Shown here in pieces: positions 56,184 through 59,437 of a DNA stretch of 64,000 bases. The stretch's first letter is position 1. Each line of letters opens with the position of its first letter. A model generated the notes under the pieces. The model searched no databases, was not told the DNA's origin, and saw only the letters and a list, made by a program, of their open reading frames with translations. Made by a program: the position numbers and the translations under genes. Origin of the DNA: Candidatus Eremiobacterota bacterium (GTDB lineage Bacteria > Vulcanimicrobiota > CADAWZ01 > Ess09-12); the NCBI GenBank assembly GCA_031082125.1, contig JAVHLM010000015.1, positions 1 to 64,000 of the forward strand, read 5' to 3'.

Positions 56184-56216
56184 TACACGGAATATTTCGA
56201 GGTGACCTGCGACTCC

Positions 56217-57077
56217 ATGAGCAGCACTATAGCAGAAGTCCTCCAGAAGGGGAAGAAGTTCCTGGGCCGTTCAGCGTCATCGACACCGGAGCTTGACGCT
56301 GAGGTGCTGCTCTCCGCTGCCATGGCCCTCTCGCGGACGGAGCTCTATGTACATTTTGACCGGATCGTCAAAGTGCTTGAAATTGAAAAGTACGGGGCGA
56401 TGCTCGAGAAGAGGATGGAGGGGTTCCCTGTCTCTTACCTTACCGGCAGGAGGGAGTTCATGTCGCTTGTTTTCCAGCTCGACGCCACCTGCTTGATTCC
56501 GCGGGCCGAAACAGAGCTCCTCGTGGAAAAGGTAATGGCCTGGCTCGAAAAACAGGATATTCCCTCGCCCCGGGTTCTTGAGTTCGGCACGGGGAGCGGC
56601 TGCATAGCCTGCGCACTTGCCAGGTTTCTCCCCCCTGTCACCATTACCGCCACCGATATTTCCGGCGGGGCCCTTGCGATGGCGGAAAAAAATGCCGTGA
56701 GCCTGGGTGTCGCCCCCCGCATCCGTTTTACGAGAGGGGACCTCTATGATGCCATTGGCAGCGATGAGCCCTTTGATGTCATCGTATCAAATCCTCCCTA
56801 TGTGACTCACCAAGAATTCACTGAGCTGCCGAGAAGCGTGAGGGAATTTGAGCCGGTGATGGCGTTGCGGGCTGATGAAGGTGGTCTCTCCATCTCGCGG
56901 CGAATTATTGAAGGTTCGGCTTTATGGCTCAAGTCCCGGGGATTGATGGCCCTTGAGATAAATCCGGCCCTGGGCCGGGATCTCGTGGAGCTCCTCGCTG
57001 GAAACGGATTTCACCGCTGCGAGGTTCATGATGATCTTGCAGGGTTCCCCAGGGTGATAACTGCGGAAAAGAGGTAG
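56217..57077 (+). CDS. prmC: Release factor glutamine methyltransferase
   Basis: 286 residues from ATG 56217 with AGGTGA upstream; a GTG at 56202 overlaps that site. N-terminal helical domain (1-80), YLTGRREFMSLVF, SAM motif VLEFGTGSGCIACAL, and VSNPPYVTHQE, where NPPY binds Gln of the GGQ loop. Methylates RF1 and RF2. 33 bases after prfA. Confidence 0.95.
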   Translation: MSSTIAEVLQKGKKFLGRSASSTPELDAEVLLSAAMALSRTELYVHFDRIVKVLEIEKYGAMLEKRMEGFPVSYLTGRREFMSLVFQLDATCLIPRAETELLVEKVMAWLEKQDIPSPRVLEFGTGSGCIACALARFLPPVTITATDISGGALAMAEKNAVSLGVAPRIRFTRGDLYDAIGSDEPFDVIVSNPPYVTHQEFTELPRSVREFEPVMALRADEGGLSISRRIIEGSALWLKSRGLMALEINPALGRDLVELLAGNGFHRCEVHDDLAGFPRVITAEKR

Positions 57078-57082
57078 GTAGT

Positions 57083-57535
57083 GTGGATAATGACAAGAGC
57101 TTCCGGAAATTTGTAGGCGCAGTCCTTCCCGGGATTCTGAAGCACACAAGGGGCACTGCGGTGCAGGAATTGAAAATTGAGGAAGAGAACAGCCATATAG
57201 CTTTCAAGCGCACAGCAAGGGGCCCTGCTCCCTCCCGGGCCCCGAAGGTCAGGACGGCGGGCCATTCCGCCGGCAAGATCATCGCCATCACTTCAGGCCT
57301 TGTGGGATTTTTTCACCGTGCCGCCACCCCCTTTGAAACTCCTCTTGTGGAAAAGGGGCAGGAGGTGACAGACGGGCAGGTGATAGGCTACGTTGAATCA
57401 ATGAGGCTTATGCACGAGATACGATCACTCGCGTCGGGCATTATCACCGATATCCTGGTCGAGGAGAACGGCAGTGTCGAATACGGGACGGCCCTCATGC
57501 AGGTGAGGGACAATGAGGGAAGAAGCCGGGAATAA
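57083..57535 (+). CDS. accB: AccB-like biotinyl domain protein with Arg at the biotin site
   Basis: 150 residues from a GTG. The N-terminus (1-60) is helical then linker, as in AccB. Residues 65-145 are the biotinyl barrel: IIAITSGLVGFFHRAATPF, EKGQEVTDGQVIGYVESMRLMHEI and a closing strand pair. In working carriers the turn is EAMKM or ESMKL; here it reads ESMRL with Arg108 (AGG at 57404-57406) in place of the biotinylated Lys. It lies five bases after prmC and ten before accC, the usual accB place. A single AAG to AGG change would give it, or it is a non-biotinylated paralogue. Confidence 0.8.
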   Translation: MDNDKSFRKFVGAVLPGILKHTRGTAVQELKIEEENSHIAFKRTARGPAPSRAPKVRTAGHSAGKIIAITSGLVGFFHRAATPFETPLVEKGQEVTDGQVIGYVESMRLMHEIRSLASGIITDILVEENGSVEYGTALMQVRDNEGRSRE

Positions 57536-57545
57536 GGAGAAAGCT

Positions 57546-58916
57546 GTGTTCAAAAAAATACTGATTGCAAACAGGGGCGAGATTGCCCTCCGGGTCATAA
57601 GGGCCTGCAGGGAGCTGGGCATTGCCACGGTGGCGATATATTCCGAAGTTGACAAGGAGTCGCTCCATGTGAAGATGGCCGACGAAGCTTATTGCGTGGG
57701 GCCTGCGAGGGTCCTGAACAGCTACCTCAATATTCCCAATATCATCAGTGCCGCCATTATCAGCAAGGCTGAGGCCATTCACCCCGGATACGGCCTCCTC
57801 GCGGAAAACGTGGCATTCGCTGAAATCTGTGACAGCCACGGCATACAATTCATCGGGCCCTCTGTGGCTTCAATGGTGCTCATGGGAGACAAGTCCAGGG
57901 CAAGGGAGACCATGGAGGGCTATGGCATCCCCATAGTGCCCGGCACCAAAATCATACAGAACAGCAAGGAAGCTGCCGACTTTGCCAGGAAGTGCGATTA
58001 CCCCCTTATCATCAAGGCCACGTCAGGAGGGGGCGGCAAGGGAATGAGGGTCGTGACCAACGAAGAGGAGCTCCTCAAGTGCATCATGACGGCAAAAGCC
58101 GAGGCAAGGACATCCTTTGATGATGACAGGATTTACCTGGAGAAGTACCTTCCGCGGTCCAAGCACATTGAGTTCCAGATTGTGGCTGACGAGCGGGGGA
58201 ACGTGATACATCTGGGAGAGCGCGACTGCTCCATCCAGAGGAGGAATCAGAAGCTCATTGAAGAAGCTCCCTCAGGGGCTGTGAGCAAGAAGCTCAGAAA
58301 GGAGATGGGAGACGCCGCCGTCAAGGGTTCGAAGCTCTCAGGCTATACAGGCGTGGGAACCATAGAGTTTCTCCTTGACCTTGATTCCGGGAGATTCTAT
58401 TTCATGGAGATGAACACCAGGATCCAGGTGGAGCACCCTGTGACCGAAATGGTGACAGGAATTGACCTGGTGAAGGAGCAGATCAGAATTGCCGCAGGTG
58501 AAAAGCTGATGCTCTCGCAGGGCGATGTCGCACTTTACGGCCACAGCATTGAATGCCGGATAAATGCCGAAGACCCCGAGAAGGGATTTGCCCCTTCAAC
58601 AGGGGTGATTACAAAACTCCACTTTCCCGGCGGCCCCGGCCTTCGGATTGACAGCCATATATACCAGGGCTCAGAGGTCTCTCCCTATTATGACTCCCTC
58701 CTTGCAAAGGTAATCTCCTTCGGCCATGACCGCAGCGAGGCCATCGCAAGAATGAGGAGGGCTCTTGATGAATTCCAGATTGAAGGAGTGAAGACCACCG
58801 TACCTTTTCACAAGAGAATTCTCGAAAGTGTTGATTTCCGGAAGGGGGAGATCCATACCTCCTTTGTCGAGAAAAGCCTTTCACAGATTCTCAGCGGGCA
58901 AGAGGTAAAGAAATAG
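57546..58916 (+). CDS. accC: Biotin carboxylase subunit of acetyl-CoA carboxylase
   Basis: 456 residues from a GTG at 57546 (AAGGAGA six bases upstream). Biotin carboxylase motifs: KKILIANRGEIALRVIRA, IHPGYGLLAEN, the ATP-grasp Gly loop TSGGGGKGMR, HIEFQIVADE, RDCSIQRRNQKLIEEAPS, and FYFMEMNTRIQVEHPVTEMVTGIDLV. Carboxylates biotin on the carrier with bicarbonate and ATP. One base overlap with nusB. Complete; no sign of damage. Confidence 0.96.
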   Translation: MFKKILIANRGEIALRVIRACRELGIATVAIYSEVDKESLHVKMADEAYCVGPARVLNSYLNIPNIISAAIISKAEAIHPGYGLLAENVAFAEICDSHGIQFIGPSVASMVLMGDKSRARETMEGYGIPIVPGTKIIQNSKEAADFARKCDYPLIIKATSGGGGKGMRVVTNEEELLKCIMTAKAEARTSFDDDRIYLEKYLPRSKHIEFQIVADERGNVIHLGERDCSIQRRNQKLIEEAPSGAVSKKLRKEMGDAAVKGSKLSGYTGVGTIEFLLDLDSGRFYFMEMNTRIQVEHPVTEMVTGIDLVKEQIRIAAGEKLMLSQGDVALYGHSIECRINAEDPEKGFAPSTGVITKLHFPGGPGLRIDSHIYQGSEVSPYYDSLLAKVISFGHDRSEAIARMRRALDEFQIEGVKTTVPFHKRILESVDFRKGEIHTSFVEKSLSQILSGQEVKK

Positions 58917-59437
58917 TGAGAAAGAGGACTATTGCAAGGATCCTGGCGCTATCAGCACTATTTCAGGTCGATGTGGGAGGGATTCATCCCGCCAAGGCCA
59001 TGGAGAATGTTTTTTTCAGCATTGATGATGAGGTGCTGGGGATTTTCCTTGATGAGGGAAAGGAGAAAGGGATCCTCAGGAAAATATCGTCAAGGGAGAA
59101 GCTCCGAGGGTATCTTGACGATGAGAAGTTCCGCTCCTTTGCCGATGAGCTCTTTTCCGGCGTCCTTCAGCATATTCAAGAGCTTGATGCATCTATAGAG
59201 GAGAAGCTGAAAAACTGGAAATACGAGAGAGTCGCCAAGGTGGAGAAGAACATCCTGAGGCTAGCCCTCTTCGAGATGCTTTACAGGGATGATATACCGG
59301 TTGAAGTCTCGATAGATGAGGCCGTGGAACTGGCAAAGATATTCGGCGACAGGGATTCGGGCAGGTTTGTGAACGGGATTCTCGGTGCAATAAAAGGTGA
59401 CGAGGTGAAAGAGCATGACAGGTCAGAAGAAGCCTAA
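58916..59437 (+). CDS. nusB: Transcription antitermination factor NusB
   Basis: 173 residues from a GTG. The helical NusB fold: RTIARILALSALFQVDVG at the start, then KVEKNILRLALFEMLYRDDIPVEVSIDEAVELAKIFGDRDSGRFVNGILG. With NusE it binds boxA of rRNA leaders. Longer than E. coli NusB (139) by an insert in residues 25-70. Overlaps the PBP gene by 23 bases. Confidence 0.93.
   Translation: MRKRTIARILALSALFQVDVGGIHPAKAMENVFFSIDDEVLGIFLDEGKEKGILRKISSREKLRGYLDDEKFRSFADELFSGVLQHIQELDASIEEKLKNWKYERVAKVEKNILRLALFEMLYRDDIPVEVSIDEAVELAKIFGDRDSGRFVNGILGAIKGDEVKEHDRSEEA

Follow-up and report, generated by a model that had tools for sequence, protein, structure and literature searches.

In the window, i.e., the whole stretch of 64,000 nucleotides analyzed here, a homologue of the biotin carrier protein AccB (BCCP) is encoded beside accC; we refer to it as AccB2. 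The features of this region, all on the forward strand, are as follows.

56202–57077, forward strand: prmC, the upstream neighbor of accB2 (open reading frame list and domain match)
57083–57535, forward strand: accB2, BCCP homologue without the biotinyl lysine, 150 aa, GTG start, with a Shine–Dalgarno-like AGAGG at 57070–57074
57089–57208, forward strand: N-terminal helix (aa 3–22) and strand pair (aa 29–42) of AccB2, predicted by the AlphaFold2 model
57278–57511, forward strand: barrel domain of the biotinyl type in AccB2, aa 66–143, predicted by AlphaFold2 (pLDDT mostly 86–98) and compared with Foldseek
57404–57406, forward strand: codon AGG for Arg108, which takes the place of the biotinyl lysine in the turn ESMRL (alignments)
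57546–58916, forward strand: accC, biotin carboxylase, the sole copy in the genome (GTG at 57546 is the likely start; the open reading frame was listed from ATG 57513)
58916–59437, forward strand: nusB, the downstream neighbor of accC (open reading frame list and domain match)

A biotin carrier-like open reading frame in the place of accB, with prmC on one side and accC on the other, had been proposed in a preliminary description of this DNA, and the open reading frame and the domain matches confirmed it: the gene order is prmC (stop at 57077), accB2, and accC. AccC had been considered fully active there, which is consistent with its match to TIGR00514 at 688.8 bits (cut-off, 626.5). Its most likely start is the GTG at 57546 rather than the ATG at 57513, which overlaps the end of accB2, because a Shine–Dalgarno sequence, AAGGAG, occurs at 57534–57539 and the fit to the conserved AccC start is better.

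AccB2 of the window matched Biotin_lipoyl with 46.9 bits (cut-off, 22.1). Its score with the BCCP model TIGR00531 was 71.8 bits, below the cut-off of 115.2 at which a protein is assigned to AccB/BCCP. At the site in the (E)AMK turn where AccB/BCCP has the lysine for biotin, this protein has Arg108; the turn had been read correctly as ESMRL, and 57405 is the base that separates Lys from Arg. The turn is otherwise near-canonical (ESM-LM-E) and the thumb loop is of full length; position +3 is His, where Asn is near-invariant in the alignment. The AlphaFold2 model (mean pLDDT 85.5; 21 homologues in the alignment) predicted the biotinyl-domain fold, as judged by Foldseek against 1bdo and 4hr7. The best solved match was 1bdo, the biotinyl domain of E. 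coli, with an rmsd of 0.6 Å over 76 columns. The AccB2 family profile aligned to residues 24 to 176 of the E. coli BCCP in the AccC–BCCP complex (4hr7_B); the N-terminal region of AccB is the usual contact with AccC. AccB2 resembles canonical AccB/BCCP (TIGR00531; E. coli 1bdo and 4hr7) in its fold, its length, its N-terminal region, and its place beside accC, but differs in that the biotinyl lysine is absent, the thumb is often lost, and the score lies under the TIGR00531 cut-off.

Acetyl-CoA carboxylase genes of the source genome

The source genome (G000; 7.4 Mb, 97.6% complete) contains three clear biotin/lipoyl carrier domains: AccB2 of the window, an AccB on contig C19, and the end of a large carboxyltransferase on contig C7. 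The C19 protein (G000:C19:38564–38992), which adjoins hisS, has the canonical turn EAMKM and, with its frame, passes the TIGR00531 cut-off (116.7 vs. 115.2 bits). A search for a second accB and for birA had been recommended in the preliminary description, and both were found, a BirA-type biotin protein ligase being encoded on C5. There is an accD/accA-like pair on C2, and the accC of the window is the single biotin carboxylase in the genome. With a true AccB, the ligase, AccA/AccD, and one AccC present, the acetyl-CoA carboxylase set is complete even without AccB2.

The region G000:C7:92381–95646 (L001, L255) encodes a PycB/OadA-like protein with a C-terminal biotin domain (EAMKM), followed by a second carboxyltransferase. 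Because no biotin carboxylase other than AccC is encoded in the genome, this pair is possibly a transcarboxylase or a decarboxylase. We rejected the idea that AccC serves a pyruvate carboxylase in this genome, since the C7 biotin protein adjoins a carboxyltransferase, as it would in enzymes that need no AccC.

Distribution and divergence of AccB2

In the phylum of the window, 58 genomes were searched, and the accC-linked copy was read in 48. At the lysine site, 30 of these have Gly, 8 have Asn, 4 each have Arg and Lys, and 2 have Ser. Because the homologue in the same slot thus has no Lys in 44 of the 48 genomes, the absence of Lys in the window is not due to chance. The residue in the relatives had been proposed as a check, and the answer was mixed: Arg recurs in the phylum (G037, G048, and G052), but Lys is kept in the nearest relative by tree (G005, turn ESMKF) and in 4 of the 48 genomes in all. 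K and R alternate among relatives in the phylum (Lys in L389 and L393; Arg in L391 and L392). Unlinked AccBs of the phylum had Lys in all 32 distinct copies read. Two fragmented genomes (G046 and G050) showed no accC-linked copy on the stretches read. Eight genomes had neither AccC nor AccB2, namely G001–G004, which belong to the same order, and G020, G022, G024, and G042; these may lack fatty-acid synthesis or carry it out differently.

Using the AccC of the window as a query, we obtained 80 named loci, and at three of them an AccB2-type protein adjoined accC: those of a member of the Leptotrichiaceae (Fusobacteriota), Candidatus Proruminimicrobium (Elusimicrobiota), and one Armatimonadetes genome. 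We then sampled Fusobacteriota (60 genomes), Armatimonadota (71 genomes), and Elusimicrobiota (80 genomes). In Fusobacteriota, AccC was present in 52 of the 60 genomes, and AccB2 lay directly upstream in all 52, with Gly at the lysine site in every case (25 + 27 read); the eight genomes without AccC had no AccB2. The accC-linked accB of the AccC-bearing Fusobacteriota (52/52) is thus the Lys-less copy. Two AccB-type copies were found in most genomes of both Armatimonadota and Elusimicrobiota. Among the 26 distinct linked copies of Armatimonadota, 18 had no Lys (G 11, R 6, S 1; K in the other 8). The 48 distinct linked copies of Elusimicrobiota comprised 34 with Lys and 14 without (S 9, R 2, and N, A, and P 1 each). 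Elusimicrobiota look like an intermediate state, in which there are two AccBs, the linked one is divergent, and Lys appears to have been lost in some branches. Arg occupies the lysine site in L158 and L248 of Elusimicrobiota, and in L287, L291, L295, L299, L305, L306, and L308 of Armatimonadota. In the Elusimicrobiota linked copies with Ser at this site (L261, L262, L265, L266, L270, L272, L273, L277, and L280; e.g., VETVSKKH), Lys often occurs in the next places.

Beyond the phylum of the window, unlinked AccB-type copies had Lys in 20 of the 20 copies of one set read. Over all the AccB2-bearing phyla, the unlinked AccBs had Lys in all but one of about 65; the sole Arg copy counted as unlinked (L287) is at a contig end. 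The AccBs read from other phyla had Lys in 49 of 49 cases. In a control set of 149 Clostridia-side genomes, nearly every genome with any AccB-type match had just one, so the presence of two AccB copies is not a general rule. The best AccB-type matches of this control (L311–L340) are in open frames of about 610–700 aa, and the carrier seems to be fused to another domain. From these comparisons of sequence, the protein of the window belongs to a family that is widespread in bacteria. Of the two explanations offered in the preliminary description, the one with a true AccB at another locus and a new role for the window copy is supported by the AccB on C19 and by same-slot relatives that usually lack Lys. 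On the new role, it pointed the right way and was partly supported; what it missed is a family that spans several phyla.

We also analyzed the divergence of the accC-linked copies, which is high (often 20–30% identity). The dN/dS ratios of related Lys-less pairs were mostly 0.04–0.27, with one short-distance pair at 0.43, which indicates that AccB2 is under purifying selection, and its conserved core consists of Gly75, Gly119, Val132, and Leu138. All 49 AccBs from other phyla and all 32 unlinked AccBs from the phylum of the window have a thumb loop of 16 residues. Among the Lys-less copies, this loop has 9–15 residues in 26 of 39 from the window's phylum, 25 of 25 from Fusobacteriota, 12 of 14 from Elusimicrobiota, and 15 of 18 from Armatimonadota. 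These lengths suggest that loss of the thumb usually accompanies loss of the carrier chemistry, while the remainder of AccB2 is kept.

In a tree of 104 rows made without the turn columns, which does not give direction, there were at least six changes between Lys and no Lys, so the residue at this site changed repeatedly. The AU test of a single AccB2 origin against separate duplications gave p = 0.395 for Fusobacteriota and p = 0.30 for the window's phylum, with 138 columns, which are too few. In the first tree, most Lys-less copies of the four phyla grouped together on a starred branch, which may reflect long-branch attraction. In the AccC tree, the two Armatimonadota rows grouped with the phylum of the window (97*).

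A putative non-catalytic subunit

In plants, the biotin attachment domain-containing proteins (BADC; BADC1–3 in Arabidopsis) are BCCP homologues with 25–30% identity that have no biotinylation motif (AMKL) and coexist with a true BCCP; they bind BC and BCCP within the heteromeric acetyl-CoA carboxylase, it is argued whether they act as a glue or an inhibitor, and they have been termed unique to the plant enzyme (PMC11926652). In G000 as well, a BCCP homologue without this motif exists alongside a true BCCP. AccB2 is similar to BADC in these two respects, and by analogy it might also bind AccC and AccB and alter the assembly or activity of the enzyme; what the sequences show here is its linkage to, and co-occurrence with, accC. 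We drew this comparison from the published description of BADC, and in contrast to AccB2, which is bacterial and linked to accC, BADCs are plant plastid proteins from unlinked nuclear genes. Another comparison is YqhY of the Asp23 family, encoded in the accBC-yqhY operon of Bacillus subtilis and reported to be a non-catalytic regulator that acts as a brake in vivo; the operon is reported to be conserved in Fusobacteria (PMC5437119). YqhY is co-encoded with accC, as AccB2 is, and non-catalytic, as AccB2 probably is, but it comes from an unrelated family. In the open-access literature, we found no description of a bacterial Lys-less BCCP.

We consider it probable, from sequence and from the BADC analogy, that AccB2 is a non-biotinylated, non-catalytic subunit of acetyl-CoA carboxylase that binds AccC, AccB, or both and either assembles the enzyme or throttles it. 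AccB2 would be produced together with AccC from one operon and would be unable to carry biotin or CO2. It would bind AccC through the AccB surfaces that it has kept, and/or pair with the true AccB encoded elsewhere, and the enzyme would then contain mixed AccB–AccB2 assemblies in which the dead subunit sets the stoichiometry. AccB2 would either aid formation of the AccC–AccB subcomplex, as a glue, or restrain malonyl-CoA synthesis by occupying carrier places, a mode of action that is also proposed for the plastid BADC proteins of plants. This role is consistent with the predicted AccB fold and the N-terminal region being kept while most lineages are without the biotinyl lysine, and with the accC linkage in every accC-bearing Fusobacteriota genome sampled and in nearly every one of the window's phylum. 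Against a uniform dead role, the Lys-bearing linked copies of Elusimicrobiota and some Armatimonadota may still be functional as a second carrier, the non-catalytic role may be derived rather than ancestral, and AccB2 of the window itself retains most of the turn and the full thumb loop. Because the copies differ so much, their function may not be uniform.

The proposed subunit role might amount mainly to competitive inhibition, with AccB2 displacing the true AccB on AccC and lowering malonyl-CoA synthesis without any part in assembly. An inhibitor model of this kind exists for plant BADC (cited in PMC11926652), a lysine-less mimic co-encoded with AccC would suit it, and the accBC operon of B. 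subtilis contains, in YqhY, a further reported brake on acetyl-CoA carboxylase (PMC5437119). However, an inhibitor co-transcribed with its target would be costly without a known release step, and the in vitro work on BADC favors the glue role (PMC11926652). We regard pure inhibition as rather unlikely, and it is a version of the preferred subunit role, not its opposite. There is still less to be said for AccB2 as a carrier acting through another residue, a neighboring Lys, or another cofactor: several linked copies retain Lys, and some Elusimicrobiota copies have one a place or two further on (VETVSKKH), but many Gly- and Asn-type turns are without any Lys (TMGID, ALGIRN, and AVGVAL), and biotin protein ligases act specifically on the turn Lys. 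This specificity argues against a substitute residue, and we judge such a carrier very improbable.

A sequencing or assembly error, by which AAG was read as AGG in a normal second AccB, would agree with the ESMKF turn of the nearest relative and with the otherwise near-canonical turn of the window. Nevertheless, little likelihood attaches to it, since Arg recurs at this site in further assemblies of the window's phylum, Elusimicrobiota, and Armatimonadota, Gly or Ser, each two base changes away from AAG, is present in most other relatives, and His replaces the near-invariant Asn at position +3. A base error in the window, if any, would leave the family-level result untouched. That AccB2 is a decaying, functionless duplicate is scarcely credible: decay would fit the high divergence and the many lineages that have lost the key residue and the thumb, but it does not fit the low dN/dS ratios, the conserved core, or the intact, accC-linked genes of all 52 Fusobacteriota genomes with AccC and of 48 genomes in the phylum of the window.

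Taken as a non-catalytic subunit, AccB2 has a wider meaning, which on balance we favor: in at least four bacterial phyla, including Fusobacteriota, acetyl-CoA carboxylase would have AccB2 as a fifth subunit without biotin, encoded in the accB place by accC and marked by repeated loss of the lysine; mixed assembly of the BADC type would have arisen in bacteria too, and the accC-linked “accB” of fusobacteria would not be the working carrier. Fatty-acid synthesis depends on acetyl-CoA carboxylase for its committed precursor, and the enzyme is a drug target. If this proposal is true, a dead but conserved carrier subunit would alter the assembly, counting, and regulation of the enzyme across whole phyla, and the accC-linked “accB” annotations in Fusobacteriota would point to the wrong gene. 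The BADC principle, called unique to plants (PMC11926652), would have evolved in bacteria as well, and these would offer small systems in which the disputed role of BADC, glue or inhibitor, could be tested.
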